From Paludibacter propionicigenes (lineage in GTDB: Bacteria; Bacteroidota; Bacteroidia; Bacteroidales; JAIFNL01), in NCBI GenBank assembly GCA_020721325.1, contig DYNA01000005.1, positions 1-59,178 of the forward strand: a stretch of DNA of 59,178 bases, written 5' to 3'. Below the pieces are notes generated by a model that searched no databases, was not told the DNA's origin, and was given only the letters and a program-made list of their open reading frames with translations. How positions within the stretch are numbered: position 1 is the stretch's first letter; every line of letters starts with the position of its first letter. Shown piece after piece: positions 1,937-59,178 of this stretch. The position numbers and the translations under genes were made by a program.

Positions 1937-3217
1937 ATGAAAAAAATTATTATAATTAGCTTATTAATTGTAATTTTCAATAAATCAAGCTTTTCGCAAA
2001 CTTCTTTTGACACTTATTTTGAGAATAAAACACTCCGTTTCGATTATTTTATTGGCGGAAATGCAGACACAAGTTTTATTTTTTTTAAAGAATTTAAAGA
2101 AGAACCCTTCTGGGGAGGCTCGAAAAAAAACTTAATTGATACGTTTAATATAGGTGAATATCAATTACTTGTCTTCGATTCACTTTCTAACGAATTGCTC
2201 TATTCGCGCGGTTATTCCAATTTATTCAAAGAATGGCAAACTACAGCGGAAGCCCGAAAAATTAATAAAACTTATTCGGAAACCGTAATTTTTCCTTTTC
2301 CTAAAAAGAGTGTTCGGTTGGAATTGCAAGAAAGACTTAAAAATCAGAAATTCAGATTGTTATATAAAATTTTTATTAATCCGAACAACTATTTTATTTC
2401 AAAAGAAAGAGTTTACAACTTTCCTACCAAGCAAATTTCAGGAAAATTTCCATCTCATCAAAGCCTTGATATTGCTCTGATTCCCGAAGGATACACCAAA
2501 AATGAAATGGAAAAATTCAGGCAAGATGCCAAGCGTTTCATGCAATATACTTTTGAAGTTCAGCCATTTACAAAATACAAAGACCACATCAATTTCACAA
2601 TCATCGAAGCTCCATCGGAACAATCGGGTAGCGATATTCCGGGTGAAAGCATCTGGCGTAAAACACTGATAAACAGTCATTTTTACACTTTTGACATTGA
2701 GCGTTATTTAACATCGCCCGACATTCACACCATAAGAAATGTAGCTGCTTGCACGGCATACGACCAGATTTTTATTCTTGTAAACACTTCAAAATATGGC
2801 GGAAGCGGCATTTTTAACTCCTATAATATCTGCGCATCTGACCATGCACAATCGCGCGAAGTTTTTACTCACGAATTCGGGCATGGGTTTGCAGCTCTTG
2901 CCGATGAATATTTCGATTCGGAAGTAGCTTATGAAAATATGTACGATTTTTCAGTTGAAATTTATAATAAAAATATAACAACTTTAGTAGAATTTCATAA
3001 AAAATGGAAAGACATGCTCGAAAAAGATACTCCAATTCCTACTCCTAATTCTTACATGTATAGAGATAAAATAGGTGTTTTTGAAGGTGGTGGTTACGTA
3101 ACAAAAAGAATTTATCGTCCGGTTTGGGATTGTAAAATGCGCTCAAACAATAAAAATGAATTTTGTCCGGTTTGTCAAAGAGCCATTGAACAATTATTAA
3201 AATTTTACACAGAGTAA
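1937..3217 (+). CDS. Secreted M64-family metallopeptidase
   Basis: A 426-residue protein with a Sec signal (about 1-20). An N-terminal beta-rich region (about 25-165) resembles the peptidase M64 N-terminal domain. The catalytic domain follows, with zinc-binding HEFGH at 312-316 and the family continuation GFAALADEY (317-325). The M64 family includes IgA-cleaving peptidases from Clostridium, but in Bacteroidota most members are of unknown substrate. Four cysteines in the last 60 residues could form disulfides in the envelope. The gene stands alone on the plus strand, divergent from the ECF sigma operon, with 55 nt before lnt. Enzyme class is confident; the substrate is unknown. Confidence 0.88.
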   Translation: MKKIIIISLLIVIFNKSSFSQTSFDTYFENKTLRFDYFIGGNADTSFIFFKEFKEEPFWGGSKKNLIDTFNIGEYQLLVFDSLSNELLYSRGYSNLFKEWQTTAEARKINKTYSETVIFPFPKKSVRLELQERLKNQKFRLLYKIFINPNNYFISKERVYNFPTKQISGKFPSHQSLDIALIPEGYTKNEMEKFRQDAKRFMQYTFEVQPFTKYKDHINFTIIEAPSEQSGSDIPGESIWRKTLINSHFYTFDIERYLTSPDIHTIRNVAACTAYDQIFILVNTSKYGGSGIFNSYNICASDHAQSREVFTHEFGHGFAALADEYFDSEVAYENMYDFSVEIYNKNITTLVEFHKKWKDMLEKDTPIPTPNSYMYRDKIGVFEGGGYVTKRIYRPVWDCKMRSNNKNEFCPVCQRAIEQLLKFYTE

Positions 3218-3244
3218 TTTTTTATAAAGATAAAAAAATATAAT

Positions 3245-3252
3245 TATTTTTG
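3245..3252 (+). promoter_or_regulatory. Candidate -7 box for lnt
   Basis: TATTTTTG matches TAnnTTTG exactly and lies 20 nt before the lnt start codon. No clear TTG-type -33 box is found at the expected distance, so read-through from the M64 gene is also possible. Confidence 0.35.
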
Positions 3253-3271
3253 CAATTTTAAATTTAATATT

Positions 3272-4879
3272 TTGAAAAAAAATTTAATTTTATCATTCGT
3301 TACAGGTATTTTACTAACCTTACCTTTTGTTAGCAATTTTTCGGGATTCATTTTATTTTTGGGCTTTTTGCCTCTTTTCATTATCGAAAAACATTATTTT
3401 GAGCGAAAAAATGAATACAAACCCATTGTTTTTTTCAATTTCGCCTACTTAGCATTTGCTTTTTGGAATTTATTCTCACTCTGGTGGACAATAAATTCGG
3501 CATGGTTCTCTATTTTACCTCCGGTTTTGCTCAATTCGTTCTTTATGGCACTTGTTTTTCTCATTTTTCACATTGCACATCGAAATTTATCCGAAAAATT
3601 TGCATTTTCAACCCTTGTTTTCTTCTGGTTGGCTTTTGAATATATTCATTTCAATTGGTTTTTAGCTTTTCCATGGTTAAATTTAGGGAATGGATTGGCG
3701 AATGATTTACAAACGATTCAATGGTATGAATATACTGGTATTTTAGGAGGAAGTTTTTGGATTTTATTAGTTAATATACTTATTTTCAGAATGTTTAGGT
3801 TGTATCTAAAATATAAAACACCAAAGGCTTTCCTATTGGAAATCGTGTTTTTAATCGCGCTAATAACTCTTCCTATTTATTTTTCAAAAAATATTATAAA
3901 AAAATATAAGGCGAAACAAAGTTTTATCCAAGTTGCTATTATTCAGCCCAATATAGATTCTTATACTGAAAAATACAATCCTCAACTTCAAATTGCCAAT
4001 TTTAATAAAATTTTAAATCAAATAAATAGCATTTCTAATAAAAAGGTTGATTTTATTATACTTCCCGAAACCAGCATTTCCCGCAACTTAGAAATAATTT
4101 GGCAAAATGATTTTAAAAAAAGTAAAACCTTGTCAAAAATCAAAGATATACTTAAACAAATGCCCCAAACGCATATCGTTTTGGGTGCAAATACATTTAA
4201 AGTTTCCCCGCAAAAACAGCAAACAGCTACCATTCGTTACGATAAAAGCTTAAATGTTTATTATGAGGCTTTTAGCTCTGCTTTGCAAATCCATTCGGGC
4301 AATCAAACTCAAGTTTACAACAAATCGCAATTTGTTTTGGGTGTAGAAAAAATGCCATTTGCTAATATTTTTCCTTGGCTCGACAATTTAATGGTCGATT
4401 TTGGAGGAATTGTTGGCAGCTTAGCTTCTGATAATGAACGAAAAACATTCACAAACAATCAAAACAAAGCTAAAATTGGCGTTCCCATTTGCTATGAAAC
4501 TTTGTTTGGAGAATTTATCACTGATTTTGTTAAAAATGATGCTAATGTGCTGTTTATCATTACAAACGATGGCTGGTGGGGCGATACGCCGGGTTACCGA
4601 CAACATGCTAAACTCTCGCAACTGCGTGCCATCGAAAACCGCCGAAGCATTGCAAGAGCTGCAAATACGGGTATTTCAGCCATTATTAATCCTTTGGGTG
4701 AAATTGAAAAAGATATAAAATACAACAAACAAGGAACTTTGGAAGGAAAAATTTCACTAAATTCCGAGAAAACTTTTTACGCAAAAAATGGAGATTTAAT
4801 TGGTCGCATTGCTTTATTTTTTGCCGGTTTATTTTTAATTTACTTGTTTGTTCAATTAAAAACTAAAAAACCAAATTAA
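3272..4879 (+). CDS. lnt: Apolipoprotein N-acyltransferase
   Basis: Transfers a third acyl chain from phospholipid to the N-terminal cysteine of lipoproteins in the inner membrane. The 535-residue chain has about six N-terminal membrane segments (roughly 5-210), a nitrilase-like (carbon-nitrogen hydrolase) domain (about 218-500) and a last membrane helix near 512-528. The triad is visible: Glu266 in LPETSIS, Lys351 in YNKSQF and Cys407 in VPICYE. The start is TTG at 3272, which aligns with the first hydrophobic segment; no better ATG is present. It is followed 12 nt later by a DUF6122 gene. Predicted lipoproteins elsewhere in the window are possible substrates. Confidence 0.95.
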   Translation: MKKNLILSFVTGILLTLPFVSNFSGFILFLGFLPLFIIEKHYFERKNEYKPIVFFNFAYLAFAFWNLFSLWWTINSAWFSILPPVLLNSFFMALVFLIFHIAHRNLSEKFAFSTLVFFWLAFEYIHFNWFLAFPWLNLGNGLANDLQTIQWYEYTGILGGSFWILLVNILIFRMFRLYLKYKTPKAFLLEIVFLIALITLPIYFSKNIIKKYKAKQSFIQVAIIQPNIDSYTEKYNPQLQIANFNKILNQINSISNKKVDFIILPETSISRNLEIIWQNDFKKSKTLSKIKDILKQMPQTHIVLGANTFKVSPQKQQTATIRYDKSLNVYYEAFSSALQIHSGNQTQVYNKSQFVLGVEKMPFANIFPWLDNLMVDFGGIVGSLASDNERKTFTNNQNKAKIGVPICYETLFGEFITDFVKNDANVLFIITNDGWWGDTPGYRQHAKLSQLRAIENRRSIARAANTGISAIINPLGEIEKDIKYNKQGTLEGKISLNSEKTFYAKNGDLIGRIALFFAGLFLIYLFVQLKTKKPN

Positions 4880-51334: not shown

Positions 51335-52213
51335 ATGAAAGCATATATTTTTCCCGGACAGGGAGCGCAATTTACGGGTATGGGCAAAGATTTGTATGAA
51401 AAATCGGCTCAAGCCAAAGAAATGTTTGAAAAAGCCAATGAAATTTTAGGCTTCAGAATAACCGACATTATGTTTGAAGGTTCTGCCGAAGAACTTAAAC
51501 AAACAAAAGTAACTCAACCGGCAATTTTTTTACATTCGGTTATTCTCACTAAAACTTTGGGCGAAACATTTGAACCAGAGATGGTTGCAGGACATTCATT
51601 GGGTGAGTTTTCGGCTTTGGTAACCGCCGGCGCATTGTCGTTTGAAGATGGTTTGAAATTGGTTTCAAAACGCGCCTTAGCCATGCAAAAAGCTTGCGAA
51701 GTTGAACCATCGACTATGGCTGCCATTTTGGGCATGGAAGATGCTCAGGTTGAGGCTATTTGCGCCGAAATAGACGAAATTGTAGTTCCGGCAAATTACA
51801 ACAGCCCCGGACAATTAGTTATTTCGGGTTCGGTAGCCGGAATTGACATGGCAATAGAAAAATTGCAAGCTGCCGGTGCTAAGCGAGCAATGAAATTGCC
51901 TGTTGGCGGTGCTTTCCACTCTCCTTTGATGCAACCAGCCGCCGCCGAACTCAAAGAAGCCATCGATAATACCGTTTTCTCTAAGCCAGTTTGTCCTATT
52001 TTTCAAAACGTTGATGCTCAGCCAACTACTGACCCAAGCGAAATAAAAGAAAAACTTATTCAGCAACTTACAGCATCGGTTCGTTGGACGCAAACCGTTG
52101 AAAACATGATAGCTGCCGGTGCAACTTCATTTACAGAAATTGGACCCGGAAATGTTCTTCAGGGTTTAGTGAAAAAAGTAGATAGAAAAATGCAAACAAA
52201 TGGTTTTCAATAA
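51335..52213 (+). CDS. fabD: Malonyl-CoA:ACP transacylase
   Basis: Loads malonyl groups onto acyl carrier protein for fatty-acid synthesis. The 292-residue protein has FPGQGAQFTGMGKDL at its start (oxyanion), the nucleophile Ser in GHSLGEFSAL (about 86-95), and a catalytic His in AFHSPLM (about 194). All are intact. It has its own promoter and is followed by an inverted repeat. Confidence 0.96.
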   Translation: MKAYIFPGQGAQFTGMGKDLYEKSAQAKEMFEKANEILGFRITDIMFEGSAEELKQTKVTQPAIFLHSVILTKTLGETFEPEMVAGHSLGEFSALVTAGALSFEDGLKLVSKRALAMQKACEVEPSTMAAILGMEDAQVEAICAEIDEIVVPANYNSPGQLVISGSVAGIDMAIEKLQAAGAKRAMKLPVGGAFHSPLMQPAAAELKEAIDNTVFSKPVCPIFQNVDAQPTTDPSEIKEKLIQQLTASVRWTQTVENMIAAGATSFTEIGPGNVLQGLVKKVDRKMQTNGFQ

Positions 52214-52233
52214 ATTATATTTCCAGTAAAAAA

Positions 52234-52354
52234 TTTGAAAATATAGAAATTTGAAAATGTGAATTATCAAAAATACTTGTTTAAATATACAAATCAATTA
52301 AAATTCTTTGGGATTTTAGAAGCTATTAAATTTTCAAATTTCTACATTTTCATA
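52234..52354. repeat. Inverted pair of 25-nt repeats after fabD
   Basis: The element at 52234-52258 (containing TATAGAAATTTGAAAAT) is inverted, with about three mismatches, at 52330-52354. Each arm itself contains repeated TTTGAAAAT units of about 16 nt. The arms enclose 71 nt of A/T-rich sequence. It may be a terminator of fabD or a small palindromic element. Confidence 0.6.
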
Positions 52355-52394
52355 AAAACTTTTTTAACTTAACTTTTTAAAAAAATATACAAAA

Positions 52395-52712
52395 ATGATA
52401 ATAGTAACAACCGATTACATTACAGGACGCGAAATAGCTCAAACTCTGGGCATTGCACGCGGAAATACGGTACGCGCCCGCAATATAGGTCGCGATTTTC
52501 TTGCCGGATTAAAAAACATTATTGGTGGCGAAATTAGCGAATACTCCAAATTAATGGCACAATCGCGCGAGCAAGCTCTGCAAAGAATGCTCCAACATGC
52601 AGACGATATGGGTGCAGATGCCGTTGTCAATGTACGTTTTTTAACCGCCGAAGTGATGCAAGGTGTTGCAGAAATTTTGGCTTATGGCACTGCCGTAAAA
52701 TTAAAACCCTAA
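52395..52712 (+). CDS. YbjQ/UPF0145 family protein
   Basis: A 105-residue protein matching the YbjQ family from end to end (VTTDYITGREIAQTLGIARGNTVRARN, GEISEYSKLMAQSREQALQRM, MGADAVVNVRF). Older annotation calls it a heavy-metal-binding domain, but function is unproven. Family members form pentameric rings. It is encoded alone with a short spacer to the NUDIX gene. Confidence 0.93.
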   Translation: MIIVTTDYITGREIAQTLGIARGNTVRARNIGRDFLAGLKNIIGGEISEYSKLMAQSREQALQRMLQHADDMGADAVVNVRFLTAEVMQGVAEILAYGTAVKLKP

Positions 52713-52804
52713 TAAGTTTTAAGGTAAAAATTTTGCCACTTTCTTATTAAATAGGTTAGTGGCAATTTACTTGTTCTAACAAAAATATAATAATCAAGTA
52801 ATCA

Positions 52805-53242
52805 ATGGCTTACACTTATGAATATCCGCGTCCGGCTTTGGCAGCCGATTCGATAGTTTTCTTAAAACAGCAAAATGAAACTAAGGTTTTACTCATTCAG
52901 AGAAAAAATGAACCGTATAAAAATTTTTGGGCATTTCCGGGTGGCTTTGTAGAAATGGACGAAGAGATTGCTGATACTGCCAAAAGAGAATTGGAAGAAG
53001 AAACGGGCTTGAAAAATATTGATTTACAAGAGTTTAAAACAATCGGAACGGTTGGACGCGACCCGCGCGGACGAACGATTTCTGTTTTTTATGTAGGCTT
53101 TGCAACTGCCGAAAATTGTCAGGTTACAGCCCAAGATGATGCTGAAAATGTTAAATGGTTTTCAATCAATGAATTACCTAATTTGGCATTTGACCACAAT
53201 GAATTAATGAAATTAGCCATTGAAAAATACCTGAAAATTTAA
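52805..53242 (+). CDS. NUDIX hydrolase
   Basis: A 145-residue protein. The Nudix box starts at about 52 (GGFVEMDEEIADTAKREL followed by EEETGL) and is complete. The PRPALAADSIVFL start and RDPRGRTISVFYVG segment resemble ADP-ribose pyrophosphatase-like proteins and NudF-like forms in Bacteroidota. Substrate could be ADP-ribose or a dihydroneopterin triphosphate; the next gene, folB, starts 2 nt after its stop and makes the second option worth weighing. Confidence 0.88.
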   Translation: MAYTYEYPRPALAADSIVFLKQQNETKVLLIQRKNEPYKNFWAFPGGFVEMDEEIADTAKRELEEETGLKNIDLQEFKTIGTVGRDPRGRTISVFYVGFATAENCQVTAQDDAENVKWFSINELPNLAFDHNELMKLAIEKYLKI

Positions 53243-53244
53243 AA

Positions 53245-53616
53245 ATGAAAATGGGCATAATTGAAATAGAAGGCATGGAATTTTATGCTTTTCACGGGCA
53301 TTTTGAAGAAGAGCGAATTGTGGGAAACCATTTTTTTGTAGATTTAAAAATGGAAGTAGAAACCGAAAAAGCTTCTCAAACCGACAATTTAGAAGATGCC
53401 GTAAATTACCAAACAGCTTACAATCTGATAAAGAGCGAGATGCAAGAAAAATCGTATTTATTGGAGCATGTTGCACAGCGAATTTTGAACCGTTTATTTG
53501 AAAATTTGAATGGGTTAAGCTCTGCTTCTGTAAAAGTGCGCAAAATCAATCCGCCAATGGGCGGTGTGATTAAAAGCGTCAGTGTTACGCTTTCGCAAAA
53601 AGCTAATTTACAATAA
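53245..53616 (+). CDS. folB: Dihydroneopterin aldolase
   Basis: A folate-pathway enzyme that cleaves dihydroneopterin to a hydroxymethyl pterin and glycolaldehyde. The 123-residue protein has IEIEGMEFYAFHGHFEEER (start block), the conserved Tyr in DAVNYQTAYNLI, the LLEHVAQRIL block and the late Lys in VRKINPP. The gene sits 2 nt behind the NUDIX gene, in one operon. It converges on the THEP1 fusion gene with a 24-nt gap. Confidence 0.93.
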   Translation: MKMGIIEIEGMEFYAFHGHFEEERIVGNHFFVDLKMEVETEKASQTDNLEDAVNYQTAYNLIKSEMQEKSYLLEHVAQRILNRLFENLNGLSSASVKVRKINPPMGGVIKSVSVTLSQKANLQ

Positions 53617-53640
53617 TTTATGAAGTTTAATATTCGTGTT

Positions 53641-55350
53641 TTAGACTTTGCCAATCAATTGGTTTAATATTATTTGATTGGCAGTTTGGGTACTTATTTT
53701 TTGTAAATCAATTATTTTATAATTTTTTAACTTCCAAAATTCGATAATTTCTGCTAAAAAAGTATCGCGTACAATCCATAAAAATATAAAATTTTGATAT
53801 TGAAGCAATTCATTTATTTCATTTGCCCAAGCCTTACCGGTAAGTTCTAAATGTCCGATTTCATCTATTATAACTAATTGAATATCAGTATTTTTAACTT
53901 TTCGCAAACTTTCTTTTCCAAATTTAACACCTTGCGGGAAAATAAAAAATTTACCGATTTTTTCATAATCATTTTCTCCACTTTCTCTTAAAAAAATTTC
54001 TGATTTATTTGTTTGAATATCAACAACATCGTAACCAATTCTTTGTTGGTTTTCTACCTGCTTTTGGGTAAAAATACCTCCAATTTTAATACTGTTTTGA
54101 ATAAAAAAAGGAATAATTTGTTTAACGAAAGTAGTTTTACCAGAATCTTTTTTTGAAGTAATAATAAATATTTTCGGTTTAGAGAAATCTTCGGAAAGTT
54201 CTCTAAAACGCATTTCTGCGAAAGCAATCAATTGCGAAACTATTTGCGTAGGATTTTTTATAATTATTTTAAAATCAGGAATATTAGAAATGACTTGCGG
54301 TAAACTTTCCGATGCAATTTCGAGCGCAAAAGGAAGCTTTTTAAAATAAGTTTTTGCAAAAAAAGAGCTAATTTTGGGATTGTACAATTCTGTTCCCAAA
54401 ACAGAAAAACCCAGTATTAAAAGCGTAGCTCTAAAATTCATTTCTATACCTATTAAAAAAGCATCGGTTAAAGTTTTCGACTGCAATTGACTGAATACAA
54501 AGGAAGTAAGCATAGTTAAAGCCACAAAGAAAATCCAAAATTTTGGTCGTAACAATTGCCGCAAAGCGCGTTTGTACTTTAAAATCCATATCAAAACAAT
54601 CAAAACACTTGTTGCAACCCAAATTTTCCAATTCAAGAGCGCAATAGTAAGTAAAGAGCTTATAATGAACAATATATTCAAAAACAACCAACACAAAGAA
54701 TAATCATTTTTTACCGGATTATTATTTTTCTTATCTTGCTTTTCGATAGTTTGTGTTTTAAAGATTAATGGCTGTGAAAGTATTTTCTTTCCGGTTCTAA
54801 TACCTATAATTGCCGAAACAATTCCAAAAAGAGCGTAAATTGAAAACAATGTTAAAATAGGCAACCATAATGTATCAAATTGTAAATTTAATTGTTTTTC
54901 GGTAAATTTCATTATACTTTTATATAACTCAACTATATTAAACCCATAAAAAATTAAAAAGTTTATAATTTTTTGAGCAAAACTCCACGAAATAGCTAAA
55001 ATAGAACCAATTACAAAACCAAAATAGTTTTTTCCCAGAAGTCGGACTGAAAATTCTAACAACAAACTTTCTACAAAAATGGCTATCATTGGTCCAAAAA
55101 TAACGGCACTCGGCGACATGGTTTTCATTATGGCACAAATTAATCCGGCACGCCAAAAAAGCCCTTTTTCTTTCCAAACAAAACTCACCGAAATGAGAAT
55201 TACAACACCAATTGCCGTTAAAATACTTCCTGAAAAAGGAATGCGCAAATTATGCAAAAAACTGCCCAAAACTATTTCTGACGAAGCCCAAACCGTTCCT
55301 ATAATGGCAGATTTAAGCCACTTTTCATCTATTTTTGAAAGTTCATTCAT
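53641..55350 (-). CDS. Single-chain ECF-like membrane transporter fused to a THEP1-type NTPase
   Basis: A 569-residue protein in three parts. Residues 1-190: five or six membrane helices in an ECF S-component-like pattern (SSEIVLGSFLHNLRIPFSG, MSPSAVIFGPMIAIFVESLLLE). Residues 218-390: a second membrane unit with the shape of a CbiQ/EcfT component (GIEMNFRATLLILGFSVLG, KLPFALEIASESLPQVI, then a helical coupling-like stretch). Residues 393-569: a THEP1-type NTPase with Walker A SKKDSGKT (399-406; the usual first Gly is Ser) and Walker B LVIIDEIGHLEL (492-503). I infer one polypeptide that binds, transports and powers uptake. The ATG overlaps the stop of the DUF364 gene by 8 nt, so translation is coupled. 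Confidence 0.75.
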   Translation of the reverse strand: MNELSKIDEKWLKSAIIGTVWASSEIVLGSFLHNLRIPFSGSILTAIGVVILISVSFVWKEKGLFWRAGLICAIMKTMSPSAVIFGPMIAIFVESLLLEFSVRLLGKNYFGFVIGSILAISWSFAQKIINFLIFYGFNIVELYKSIMKFTEKQLNLQFDTLWLPILTLFSIYALFGIVSAIIGIRTGKKILSQPLIFKTQTIEKQDKKNNNPVKNDYSLCWLFLNILFIISSLLTIALLNWKIWVATSVLIVLIWILKYKRALRQLLRPKFWIFFVALTMLTSFVFSQLQSKTLTDAFLIGIEMNFRATLLILGFSVLGTELYNPKISSFFAKTYFKKLPFALEIASESLPQVISNIPDFKIIIKNPTQIVSQLIAFAEMRFRELSEDFSKPKIFIITSKKDSGKTTFVKQIIPFFIQNSIKIGGIFTQKQVENQQRIGYDVVDIQTNKSEIFLRESGENDYEKIGKFFIFPQGVKFGKESLRKVKNTDIQLVIIDEIGHLELTGKAWANEINELLQYQNFIFLWIVRDTFLAEIIEFWKLKNYKIIDLQKISTQTANQIILNQLIGKV

Positions 55351-56152
55351 TGATTATACAAATTTTTTCGGCACCATATTCAAATGTATGATAACCTGCG
55401 CCGCCCTCGCTAATTACTTTAAACATCATTTCGGGCTTGGTTATTTTTACAGCACCAATTATTTTCACATTTTTTTTAAATAAAATATCGGGTATAAAAC
55501 TGCTCGAAGGTCCGGTAACGATGATTTGAGTTTGAGGTTTTATATATTTCAATAAATCATCTAAAGTATTGTTTACCAGAGTTGAACCAGTAATAATTAC
55601 AATATCTGAAATGGGTAAAATTCGATTGTATTCGTTGGCTGGCACAAAATATTTTTTATCTTCCGGCAAAAAAATATTTTCATTAAATTCCAAAACATGC
55701 AATTGGTGATTTGATTTTGAAAGTTTCTGAATGTACGAATGAAATGCGCCCACCATAGTTATCGTTTTGTCTGAAACAGAAGAAATTAAATCGATAGGGT
55801 CGGTATTTGAAAGAATTTTATAATCCGGCCTTTTTAAAAATCGAGACGAAATAGCATTTATAACCGCAACTTGCAAAGTAGTAATAAACTCATTGTTTTT
55901 GGTCGTTTCGAGTAAATCCAATACACGCGAACCAGCCATTTTTCCTGAAGTAAATTCGCCAAAATCCCGCATTTCTTTTTTACAATGTACCTGATTATAA
56001 TTTGGAGTAACCGTACTCGAAATTCCATAACTTTCGTCAGAAAGTTTCACTGCCGTCATAAAAACACCCATGCGCACATCGACAAGATGCAACGACTCGA
56101 TATAGGCTTTGTGCTTGGTTTTTAATAAGTTAATTGTTTCTTGCAATATCAT
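55343..56152 (-). CDS. DUF4213/DUF364 putative heavy-metal-chelation protein
   Basis: A 269-residue soluble protein. The N-terminal DUF4213-like part (about 1-95, VDVRMGVFMTAVKLSDESYGISST) and the C-terminal DUF364 domain (about 115-260, TITMVGAFHSYIQKL, SDIVIITGSTLVNNTLDDLL, VTGPSSSFIPDILFKKNVKIIGAV) match the family proposed, from structures, to chelate heavy metals. It often lies near metal or molybdate transporters in anaerobes. Here it overlaps the THEP1 fusion gene and lies downstream of a TonB receptor. A -7-like box (CAAAATTA on the plus strand, 56207-56214) suggests an additional promoter. Confidence 0.85.
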   Translation of the reverse strand: MILQETINLLKTKHKAYIESLHLVDVRMGVFMTAVKLSDESYGISSTVTPNYNQVHCKKEMRDFGEFTSGKMAGSRVLDLLETTKNNEFITTLQVAVINAISSRFLKRPDYKILSNTDPIDLISSVSDKTITMVGAFHSYIQKLSKSNHQLHVLEFNENIFLPEDKKYFVPANEYNRILPISDIVIITGSTLVNNTLDDLLKYIKPQTQIIVTGPSSSFIPDILFKKNVKIIGAVKITKPEMMFKVISEGGAGYHTFEYGAEKICIINE

Positions 56153-56392
56153 TTGAAACAGTTTGAGTGCGTGAATTTGTAAGTTTTGAAATTTCTAAAA
56201 AAAACACAAAATTACGCATTTTTTACGAAAAAAATAAATGCTTTTTTAATTAATTTGCACTATTTTTCCGCAGTTTAATCTACTTTGTAGGTCTGTTTGT
56301 TGAATTTATAAATGTTTTTCAAAAAAAACAAGTCAGAGAAACGAATTTGGTCATTTTTTTAAAATTCTTTTACGAACAATTTACGCTGTTAA

Positions 56393-58372
56393 TTATTTTT
56401 TTAAATTAAATATTAAGGAAAAATAAAAATTTCTACCTTCTTCGGGATAACCTTCAATTAAGGTATAATTTTTATCAAAAATATTATTTATACCGGCTTG
56501 TATTTTGAAATATTTTGCAAAAATATACGAAATTTGAGTGTTAAAAACTACAAATTCGGGCGAAATAGTTCCATAACTTGTACTAAATCGGTCGGAATTG
56601 TATTCGCTTGAAAAAACAAATTCGATTTTTTTTACCGGAAAATAATCGATGTAAGCAAAAAATTTATGGTTCGGAACATCGGTAAATTCAATATCGGCAT
56701 TGGTAATATTGTTGCGTTCGATGTAAGTATAATTGGCATTGAACATTAAATTTTGCAAAATTTGAAAATAAATAGAAATGTCTGCGCCATAAAATTCAGC
56801 TTTCCCGGTGTTTTGCATTTGGTAAAGCCCCTCTTGTAAATTGTTAACCAATTGTATAGTATTATCAATTTTTGAATAAAAAACGGCTGGTTCTACTATA
56901 AATTTATCATTAATTTTGATTTTTGAAGCCCATTCATAATTCAAAGCTCTTTCCGATTTTAAATCGGGATTTGGAATGGCAATGCCTAATTTGTATGAAT
57001 ATCTGTCTTTCATGGTTGCAAAACGAGTCTTATGCGCTACCGTAAAACTTAAATCTAAGTGATTAGTAAATTGGTAAAAAGCAGCCAATTGAATATTTGT
57101 TGCTGAATTTTTATTTTCGGGATACATTGAAATAACTTCCGAGCTTGAATTGTAATCTTCTGCCTGAATGCTATTTCGCAAATTGTAACTTAATCCGGGA
57201 ATTAATTTTAATTGGTTACCGAGCGAAAAAATATCTTCAACACCAAAAGAAAAAGTATTATCGGCAAAGTGCCTAATCGGTTCACCTTCATTGTTTTCGC
57301 GGTGCAAATCGTATTTATAGTGTCCGGCAATTTTTACCACATTATTTTTAATCAATTCAGTTCCTATTTCAATATTACTACCATAAGAATAATCGTTGTG
57401 ATAGCTTGTAAATGAATAATTTTTATTTTGTGTTGAATAAGAATCGTTATCGAAACTTTTTAAAGTATTTTTAAAATTATCGAAAAAAAATCGGGTTTTT
57501 AAATAACTCTTTTCGGCAATGGTCGTTTTTGAAATAAAATAAACACTTTGTTTGTCCCAAACAGGCCATTGCCAATATCTGATTTTAACCGAAGCATCAT
57601 CACCTAAATAAATTGGATTTCCCTTTTCGCCGTGTTGAAAAACGTAATTAATGGAATATTCATCGGTTGAATTGGGAGTAAAACCTACTTTTACGCTAAT
57701 TTTATCGTCATTTCTGAATGAATTGTCCCTTTTCCAATCCATTTCATTCTTTGTAGTATCAAAATCTCGCGAAATTTTGTAAAAATCTCGATTAAACTTT
57801 GAAAAATGGGCTTGAAAATAGAATTTTCCCCTTTTACTTGCTATATTTGCGCTGGTAGAATAGCCTTTTCCGGTCAAAAGTCCGGCTTTTAAATTTATTT
57901 CGAGCTTTTCAGTGGGTTTGGAACTGATTAAATTAATCGCCCCGCCAATGGTATTTGCGCCAAAAAGTATGGAAGAATAGCCTTTTGAAATCTCTATTTT
58001 CGACAAATCGGAATTGGTAAACCGCGCCAAATCTACGTAACCATCGTAAGGCACGTAAACGGGAATGCCATCTACAAAAACCGGAACACTTCTGAGGTCA
58101 AAACCACGAAGGTAAATTGTACTTTCATTTCTTGCTCCAATGTTTACCAGCGTTGCGGAAGGTAAAATGCTTATTGAATTAGCCACATCTATCGTATTCA
58201 ATTTTTGCATTTCCGATTGTGTTACCGATTTTTCCAAAATGCTTTCTGAAACAACCACTTCACCAAGTTCGTAAACTTTCACGTTATTAAAAGTTGTGTC
58301 GATTGTATTTTGCGCTTTTACTTTTGAAAGAATCAATATAAAAACCAGTAAAAAAAATAAATAGCTTCTCAT
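56393..58372 (-). CDS. TonB-dependent outer-membrane receptor
   Basis: A 659-residue receptor with a Sec signal (about 1-20). A TonB-box-like EVVVSESIL (about 38-46) precedes the plug domain (about 47-170; STIYLRGFDLRSVPVFVDGIPVY, GANTIGGAINL). A 22-strand-type barrel follows, ending in FYFSLIFNLKK. It is short and lacks a SusD partner, as in BtuB- or metallophore-type receptors. Upstream DNA carries ModE-like half-sites. Together with the ModE-like gene and the DUF364 and THEP1 genes this points to uptake of a metal oxyanion or chelate; the ligand is inferred. Confidence 0.9.
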   Translation of the reverse strand: MRSYLFFLLVFILILSKVKAQNTIDTTFNNVKVYELGEVVVSESILEKSVTQSEMQKLNTIDVANSISILPSATLVNIGARNESTIYLRGFDLRSVPVFVDGIPVYVPYDGYVDLARFTNSDLSKIEISKGYSSILFGANTIGGAINLISSKPTEKLEINLKAGLLTGKGYSTSANIASKRGKFYFQAHFSKFNRDFYKISRDFDTTKNEMDWKRDNSFRNDDKISVKVGFTPNSTDEYSINYVFQHGEKGNPIYLGDDASVKIRYWQWPVWDKQSVYFISKTTIAEKSYLKTRFFFDNFKNTLKSFDNDSYSTQNKNYSFTSYHNDYSYGSNIEIGTELIKNNVVKIAGHYKYDLHRENNEGEPIRHFADNTFSFGVEDIFSLGNQLKLIPGLSYNLRNSIQAEDYNSSSEVISMYPENKNSATNIQLAAFYQFTNHLDLSFTVAHKTRFATMKDRYSYKLGIAIPNPDLKSERALNYEWASKIKINDKFIVEPAVFYSKIDNTIQLVNNLQEGLYQMQNTGKAEFYGADISIYFQILQNLMFNANYTYIERNNITNADIEFTDVPNHKFFAYIDYFPVKKIEFVFSSEYNSDRFSTSYGTISPEFVVFNTQISYIFAKYFKIQAGINNIFDKNYTLIEGYPEEGRNFYFSLIFNLKK

Positions 58373-58448
58373 AAATATTTCTTTTTTAAAAAAAAACGTT
58401 ATATACTAAAATGAATAATGACAAACAAAAAAAATATTCATCTTTCTT

Positions 58449-58507
58449 CGTTATGTTGATTAATGAATAACGGTGCAAAATAAAAAATAAAAAAAATAAC
58501 GAACAAA
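58449..58507 (-). promoter_or_regulatory. Receptor promoter with ModE-like operator half-sites
   Basis: Read on the minus strand, TTTG (58507-58504), a 20-nt spacer and TTATTTTG (58483-58476) form a near-consensus promoter. CGTTAT (58449-58454) and ATAACG (58467-58472), 12 nt apart, form an inverted repeat over the predicted start of transcription. Another ATAACG lies in the spacer (58496-58501) and CGTTATATAC lies in the leader (58397-58406). Inverted CGTTAT-type half-sites are characteristic of known ModE operators as I recall them. The arrangement suits repression. Confidence 0.6.
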
Positions 58508-58644
58508 TTTTTTCAAAAAAAATACGATACTTTGTAAAAAAGAAAAGTGTAAATTTATTTCTAAACGTTTACAATTGAAACTTTTATTCTTATGCAATTA
58601 CTTTATAATTAAACCTTTGAAATAAATTATCGTTTATAGTATAA

Positions 58645-58992
58645 CTAAATGTCGTTCAATTTTTTTGTTTGTTCGGTTAAAAAAACTTCAAAATCGGATT
58701 GTAAATTTTTATAGGTAATTAAAATTTTTTCACCAAATTCTGTTATTTGAGCTATTCCGCCTTCTCTCCCACCCCGCTTGAGTATAACTACTTGTTTATT
58801 AGAAGCTTTGTTCATTTTGTCAATGTTAATCCACGCTTGTCGATACGACATTTTCATTTCGGCAGCGGCTTTTCTAAGCGACCCTAACTGTTTAATTCGC
58901 TCTAATAACTCGATTTTACCGTTTCCGATAAATGAATCGTCATTGCAGTTAATCCAAATTCTGCCTACGATTGAAAAATTTTCTTTACACAT
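58645..58992 (-). CDS. Short ModE-like transcriptional regulator
   Basis: A 115-residue winged-helix protein matching the DNA-binding domain of ModE (IELLERIKQLGSLRKAAAEMKMSYRQAWINIDKMN, then the wing LKRGGREGGIAQITEFGEKIL). The C-terminal molybdate-binding (Mop/TOBE) domains of E. coli ModE are absent. Such short forms occur in several phyla. It is upstream of the receptor gene in the same direction, and possible target sites lie just downstream in the intergenic region. Candidate promoter: CAAAAATA on the plus strand at 59115-59122. Confidence 0.85.
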   Translation of the reverse strand: MCKENFSIVGRIWINCNDDSFIGNGKIELLERIKQLGSLRKAAAEMKMSYRQAWINIDKMNKASNKQVVILKRGGREGGIAQITEFGEKILITYKNLQSDFEVFLTEQTKKLNDI

Positions 58993-59178
58993 ATTTTTAA
59001 AATTTTATTTTCTAAGTTATACGAAAAATAAAATGTTATTCTTTGTTTTTCAGCATCTTATCAAATTCCTCACTTTTTACTATTTTTAAAGAATGGAATT
59101 TTTTTATAAAAAGACAAAAATAATATTTGATGGTGATTCAAAAAGTATGATAAAAATCAAATAAAACCAAAATTAATA
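58993..59178. other. Window end, upstream of the ModE-like gene
   Basis: A/T-rich sequence with one candidate minus-strand -7 box (59115-59122) and a possible -33 box 16 nt further (59139-59142). No other feature is seen before the window ends. Confidence 0.35.

Follow-up and report, generated by a model that had tools for sequence, protein, structure and literature searches.

A probable ModE-type operator ahead of a TonB-dependent receptor operon in Paludibacter propionicigenes and its possible link to the acquisition of molybdenum cofactor

Inverted repeats between a gene for a small ModE-like protein and a gene for an outer-membrane receptor raise two questions: which protein binds these repeats, and what do the genes behind them bring into the cell? 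The locus lies in the window, i.e., the whole stretch of DNA analysed here (59,178 nucleotides from Paludibacter propionicigenes). Since the window is the whole of contig C15, sequence beyond modE cannot be read. The best explanation of the whole, which we hold to be rather more probable than its alternatives combined, joins a ModE operator, repression and a cofactor-acquisition operon. The features on which the argument is built are as follows.

58645..58992, minus strand: short ModE-like winged-helix regulator, 115 aa (TIGR00637 match, under its cut-off)
58496..58501, no strand: lone half-site ATAACG with no N12 partner, in the promoter spacer upstream of O1
58476..58483, minus strand: promoter-like box TTATTTTG, with its end 4 nt ahead of O1
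58449..58472, no strand: putative operator O1, CGTTAT-N12-ATAACG, an exact dyad located where transcription of the receptor gene is expected to begin
58397..58420, no strand: putative operator O2, CGTTAT-N12-ATAATG, one mismatch
56393..58372, minus strand: TonB-dependent outer-membrane receptor, 659 aa (PF07715 plug domain, E 4.9e-17)
55343..56152, minus strand: DUF4213-DUF364 protein, 269 aa (PF04016, E 6e-40, above the cut-off; 3npg, 3l5o)
53641..55350, minus strand: TMNTP, a membrane protein with a C-terminal NTPase, 569 aa (predicted fold and PF03266)

The gap between the modE-like gene and the receptor gene (58373-58644) comprises 272 nt with a G+C content of 18%. The half-sites listed in the sequence-only reading, CGTTAT at 58397 and 58449 and ATAACG at 58467 and 58496, are all present, and the 12-nt spacing of the pair at 58449-58472 is confirmed; what had been overlooked is that the half-site at 58397 belongs to a dyad of its own (58397-58420), which carries one mismatch. 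O1 and O2 begin 76 and 24 nt ahead of the receptor ATG, respectively, and their centres are 52 bp apart, approx. five helical turns. The lone half-site at 58496 may be due to chance.

Chance similarity in A/T-rich DNA has to be considered for the dyads as well, as the overall numbers of half-sites and dyads are at control level. In the whole window, the half-site hexamer is found 29 times versus 35.3 expected, i.e., without enrichment; in the organism's own genome, the total for the dyad with up to two mismatches is 103 versus 380 for a reversed-pattern control, which is no excess; and in 23 genomes, exact dyads number 17 versus 14 for the control, so that the totals are equal. Because the hexamer is not enriched across the window, the signal lies in clustering and geometry. 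When the gap was dinucleotide-shuffled 20,000 times, at least four half-sites appeared in a fraction of 0.0003 and an exact N12 dyad in a fraction of 0.0001. The operator reading would also suffer if the motif were equally common elsewhere, which is not the case: one exact copy of CGTTAT-N12-ATAACG, O1, is found in the 4.36-Mb genome (4,361,397 bases in 254 contigs, 91% complete), with 0.38 expected from window composition, and nine places match with at most one mismatch, two of them being O1 and O2. In this genome, it is the placement of the dyad alone that is non-random, and a plain genome-wide count is uninformative. The shuffles, the single exact genomic copy and the conservation, spacing and placement described below lead us to reject chance, which now seems vanishingly improbable.

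Conservation of the motif upstream of orthologous receptors had been proposed as a further check, and it was borne out. Homologues of the regulator are encoded in 118 of the 393 genomes of the order (E <= 1e-10), and the close group comprises 14 genomes including the organism's own (E <= 3.5e-24). A dyad is located between modE and the receptor gene in all nine loci with this arrangement (the window, L051, L052, L053, L055, L056, L058, L062 and L065); it is exact in six, carries one mismatch in two and has N11 spacing in one. Two dyads, as in the window, are found in L172 and in G170 (L051), where both are exact and 59 bp apart. The dyad is also found when the genes are arranged differently: in G002, which lacks the receptor, it precedes DUF364-TMNTP; in G066 and G161, it lies before the receptor while modE stands alone elsewhere; in G021, with modE elsewhere, it lies before DUF364-TMNTP-moeA-mog; and in G161 and G159 (one mismatch in the latter), it lies before TMNTP, away from modE. 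No dyad was found in the stretches read of G253 and G384. Five close modE homologues have no dyad beside them, namely L057, L061, L054 (291 nt from a contig end; the receptor has an exact dyad elsewhere, L116), L059 (receptor and TMNTP are elsewhere, with dyads, L117 and L124) and L060 of G159, in which modE stands apart from the receptor and TMNTP. Two irregularities of gene structure were observed among these loci. The one-mismatch dyad of G159 (L134) overlaps the start of the TMNTP reading frame, whose annotated start may be too early, and the receptor gene in L052 (G163) is split into frames 1313-2137 and 2201-3292 by a frameshift or an assembly error, with the dyad and the other genes intact.

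The spacing between the half-sites is specific, too. A survey of 80 named loci of TMNTP relatives, 1,254,893 bases in all, gave eight exact dyads at N12 (four of these sites, in L174, L175 and L176, belonging to loci already used before), one at N11 and none at any of the 15 other spacings between 4 and 20. A modE gene precedes eight of these nine dyads; in L176, where a longer reading frame hides modE in the gene calls, this was judged from position. The L207 dyad lies elsewhere. Of the 17 exact sites in the 23 genomes, nine precede the receptor gene, two precede DUF364, two lie beside modE in a different gene context and four are found at other places (G002:C271, G065:C17, G132:C26 and G321:C181). 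Moreover, a dyad with one mismatch lies beside modE and before modABC in G132, and a dyad is located near modABC in G065.

The sequence-only reading had also claimed that the layout agrees with known ModE half-sites, and the geometry of the Escherichia coli consensus is indeed identical. In the published consensus ATCGCTATATANNNNNNTATATAACGAT, also written ATCGCTATATA-N6-TATATAACGAT, CGCTAT and ATAACG are exactly 12 nt apart (PMC2700814). The E. coli operators and the sites described here share the outer half-sites CGnTAT...ATAACG and the 12-nt spacing, whereas the inner bases differ, being TTC...GAA in window-type sites (PMC2700814). Molybdenum genes are nearby in both systems; the target here is a TonB receptor operon and not ModABC. 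There is little doubt, judged from sequence, that the dyad or dyads between modE and the receptor gene represent ModE-type operators.

The position of O1 relative to the promoter bears on how such an operator would act. An alignment of 24 sites gives CGTTATTC...ATAACG for the dyad; in most of them, a TATTTTTG-like box lies upstream, with its end 4 nt away from the dyad. Bacteroidota promoters have boxes at -7 and -33, and the -7 box reads TAnnTTTG. In the window, the box TTATTTTG and a TTTG at 58507-58504 on the minus strand, in the -33 position to it, resemble these boxes. As the TATTTTTG-like box fits the Bacteroidota -7 box, transcription would start at the first bases of the dyad; the earlier placement of the pair at 58449-58472 at the transcription start of the predicted promoter agrees with the box 4 nt ahead of it. 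A sigma-70 promoter scan, which does not cover Bacteroidota promoters, gave nothing above shuffles, and a riboswitch search of 52000-59178 gave no match at threshold and one chance-level match (E 0.52). A site over the transcription start favours repression, and it is likely that the ModE-like protein represses the receptor operon. Alternatively, the dyad might be bound by some other regulator and not by the adjacent ModE-like protein, or ModE might be an activator; O1 lies at the expected transcription start, but O2 and the lone half-site are positioned otherwise. Some other regulator would have to account for the association of the dyad with modE and molybdenum genes across families and for its match to the geometry of the ModE consensus, while an activator fits poorly with a site over the transcription start. 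Both variants are therefore quite improbable, and repression by the adjacent protein is the preferred reading.

The regulator itself is a ModE-like, HTH-only protein and not a classical ModE. It matches TIGR00637 with E 6.2e-22 and 77.5 bits, under the cut-off of 98.5, and no match to a TOBE/Mop ligand domain was found in its 115 aa. Its best solved match by sequence is 2ijl (residues 20-107, E 5e-16), a short molybdenum-binding transcriptional repressor of 135 aa from another organism, and residues 21-97 are similar to the winged-helix domain of E. coli ModE (1o7l/1b9m). E. coli ModE has Mop domains, whereas the protein described here is without them. A short ModE-like regulator of Campylobacter jejuni without a metal domain, described by Taveirne in 2009, is said to control metal-oxyanion transport (ABC transporters); unlike in the TonB receptor operon of the window, no receptor reportedly figures among its targets. 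The protein of the window may respond to molybdenum through a small ligand site, through a separate Mop protein or by recognising the cofactor itself.

The operon that would be under this control encodes, in order on the minus strand, the receptor, the DUF364 protein and the 569-residue membrane protein TMNTP, whose frame overlaps that of DUF364 by 8 bases. The receptor has a plug domain together with a barrel, as TonB-dependent receptors do; TonB families cover residues 49-653, below their specific cut-offs, and the nearest solved relatives by sequence are BtuB and CirA. For DUF364, an action on a flavin or pterin derivative has been proposed on structural grounds, and its gene neighbours have been linked to molybdate and tungstate transport (PMC2954201). 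The gap between the receptor and DUF364 genes measures 240 nt in the window (56153-56392) versus 18 nt in G170. A TAATTTTG box is present in this gap, ahead of DUF364, and in the window DUF364 and TMNTP may be transcribed from a separate promoter that is not regulated. Because of the 240-nt gap with a possible box, co-transcription with the receptor gene is likely but not certain in the organism's own genome.

TMNTP appears to be built of three parts: an ECF S-component-like part (residues 6-197), an EcfT-like part (208-392) and a THEP1-like NTPase (393-569). The last part matches PF03266 and, in its modelled fold, 1ye8 (Z 18.6). Residues 1-392, in turn, gave no Pfam or NCBIfam family in 34 members (stray single matches had E >= 0.006), no match to a solved sequence and no sequence similarity to ECF transporters, and their assignment comes from AlphaFold models built from a 34-sequence alignment (mean pLDDT 84.7 for the full length and 81.2 for the core). 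In these models, residues 6-197 resemble the ECF S-component 5edl (Z 12.7, rmsd 3.6, 167 of 197 residues aligned) and the riboflavin S-unit 5kbw_B (TmRibU; Z 9.6), the next unrelated rows scoring 6.2-6.3; this is a resemblance of model fold, and helical folds can reach such Z values by chance. Residues 208-392 match EcfT weakly (4rfs_T, Z 7.4 and 6.6; 4huq_T, Z 6.1). Foldseek found no match to the core at E <= 0.001; since it gave no significant core match, the ECF reading depends on a single aligner and on predicted structures. Its top rows for the core were MFS-type transporters, at E 0.05 or worse, and were taken as noise. Some relatives of TMNTP are without the NTPase or have it as an adjoining gene. 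Two adjoining genes encode the S-T part and the THEP1 NTPase in L154 (5334-7041), L160 (834-3158) and L164 (3733-5368), and their separate encoding in some genomes supports the domain split. Cultured relatives with TMNTP include Prolixibacter denitrificans DSM 27267 and Maribellus luteus. Compared with ECF vitamin transporters, TMNTP has S and T in one chain and, as far as this chain is concerned, a fused THEP1-type NTPase instead of ABC ATPases (the EcfA pair). The ECF S-components described so far mostly carry vitamins, and the Ni/Co ECF systems look different.

What such an operon would import can be approached from the cofactor genes. Searches of the organism's own genome (91% complete) for MoaC, MoeA, MoaE and ModB gave no match, and no MoaA match was credible, the best scoring 37.9 bits versus 241-256 bits in five relatives. 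The same genome has, at G000:C94 (L152), an operon for a molybdopterin oxidoreductase that includes FeS and NrfD subunits and, at G000:C71 (L153), a gene for a xanthine-dehydrogenase-like enzyme. Among the 393 genomes of the order, TMNTP with its core matched is encoded in 123 (G046, G131, G335 and G368, in which the NTPase part alone matched, were dropped from 127), MoaC in 162 and MoeA in 170. MoaC is present in 77 of the 123 TMNTP genomes, so the system is not confined to genomes unable to make the cofactor; it is absent from 46, and 37 of these also lack MoeA. All 46 carry a molybdoenzyme domain (PF01568, PF02738) versus 3 of 34 control genomes, i.e., cofactor-dependent enzymes occur without biosynthesis genes; the Fisher P of 4e-19 is too small because the genomes are related. 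The controls were drawn from the 180 genomes without TMNTP, MoaC and MoeA and left out the MoeA-positive, MoaC-negative genomes without the TMNTP core (G046, G193, G235, G262 and G286). The sample covers one order and many metagenome-assembled genomes; the 46 genomes fall in 25 families, 38 of them are at least 90% and 11 at least 98% complete, and G214 is a single contig. The three positive controls (G041, G084 and G122) have molybdoenzyme domains without MoaC, MoeA and TMNTP, which implies a further cofactor route or genes that escaped detection. The search for MoaE (PF02391) was negative in eight of 12 MoaC-positive genomes (G066, G170, G163, G132, G138, G282, G375 and G179), and MoaE was therefore uninformative and dropped as a marker; molybdopterin synthase may be divergent in this order.

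TMNTP is also linked to molybdoenzymes by position. A molybdoenzyme is encoded within 10 kb of TMNTP in nine of the 46 genomes versus 0.66 expected, and in the named set, 17 of 80 TMNTP loci have a molybdoenzyme neighbour (L202 holds the source of three queries). The order MobA-TMNTP-oxidoreductase-FeS-NrfD is found in G009 and G369, and TMNTP stands beside xanthine-dehydrogenase subunits in G214 and G199. Most TMNTP loci are without the modE-receptor part. It might be argued that TMNTP and DUF364 act at the membrane to insert, protect or repair the cofactor, with the receptor as a passenger for another substrate such as an iron chelate or B12: in most loci, TMNTP adjoins MobA, MocA, XdhC or molybdoenzymes without a receptor, and the sequence of the receptor is closest to BtuB and CirA. 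However, this would leave the pterin source of the MoaC-negative genomes unexplained, the S-T fold resemblance of the model points to import, and the same operator joins the receptor to TMNTP even when they are apart (G066, G161 and G021). We consider such a role unlikely, and it is highly probable that the receptor operon acquires molybdenum in some form.

The main rival to cofactor uptake is an operon with the same operator and regulation that imports molybdate, tungstate or a metal chelate (metallophore) rather than a pterin cofactor. In that case the receptor would handle a chelate in the manner of siderophore receptors, and TMNTP would stand in for ModABC. The regulator is ModE-like, the neighbours of DUF364 have been linked to molybdate and tungstate transport (PMC2954201), and a ModB-type permease scoring above 100 bits is absent from 14 of 15 TMNTP genomes, including the MoaC-positive G066, G170 and G163. 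Because ModB is lacking in these 14, metal import explains the MoaC-positive genomes equally well. Against it, metal alone cannot supply the 46 genomes that have molybdoenzymes without MoaC (37 without MoeA), and the vitamin cargo of most S-components, like the different appearance of Ni/Co ECF systems, argues for another substrate. A genome that has molybdoenzymes without pterin synthesis must obtain the pterin, and a TonB receptor, a vitamin-type S fold and the pterin or flavin proposal for DUF364 together form a coherent uptake route. Import of metal is thus a possible, clearly less probable alternative, and on balance the acquired form is somewhat more likely to be the pterin cofactor or its precursor.

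Under the preferred reading of cofactor uptake, a homodimer of the adjacent short ModE-like protein would bind O1, over the transcription start, and probably O2, and the protein bound at O1 would block RNA polymerase, so that the receptor operon would be repressed when molybdenum, or its cofactor, is sufficient. The TonB receptor would carry the substrate across the outer membrane and the ECF-like S-T membrane protein with its THEP1-type NTPase across the inner membrane, while the DUF364 enzyme would modify the substrate or a chelator. Molybdopterin or the complete molybdenum cofactor would be the most likely substrate. A dedicated uptake system for either, composed of a TonB receptor, a DUF364 enzyme, a one-chain S-T transporter with a THEP1 NTPase and a ModE-like switch without a ligand domain, is a proposal that is about as likely as not. 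MoaC-positive genomes could use the system as a supplement; producers of B12 also import B12. Cobalamin uptake via BtuB/Btu is alike in outline, with a TonB receptor for a cofactor that is regulated by need and is related in sequence to the receptor described here, whereas its regulator and inner-membrane part are different.

It has been reported that several hundred organisms have molybdoenzymes and no complete cofactor pathway, which was left unexplained (Peng et al. 2018, PMC6147048). Most of these 'orphan molybdoprotein' organisms, whose enzymes belong to the DMSOR and XO families, have no known Mo transporters; the authors propose undiscovered biosynthesis or Mo-independent forms, and uptake is absent from the accessible part of the text (PMC6147048). 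The TMNTP-positive, MoaC-negative genomes are like these organisms in having molybdoenzymes without a complete cofactor pathway (PMC6147048). If the uptake reading is true, many Bacteroidota with 'orphan' molybdoenzymes could live without cofactor biosynthesis, and a long-standing gap concerning these enzymes becomes testable. If TMNTP imports a pterin cofactor, the molybdenum cofactor would join B12 as a shared good in anoxic communities. Literature searches in an open-licence library turned up neither a ModE-controlled TonB receptor nor a bacterial molybdopterin transporter, which, with subscription papers and preprints outside its scope, is weak evidence of absence. The operator by itself looks like a ModE-type site similar to known ones, and the cofactor-uptake operon looks so far undescribed; what the operator controls matters more than the operator itself.

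Two of the exact dyads found at other places have molybdenum genes or a receptor gene in their surroundings. The dyad of G132:C26 (L121, 6076-6099) is located approx. 3.8 kb before a moeA-moaA-moaC cluster, and that of G321:C181 (L122, 6159-6182) lies between a gene for a TonB receptor of a different kind and a divergent gene, which makes it a possible further ModE-type target.
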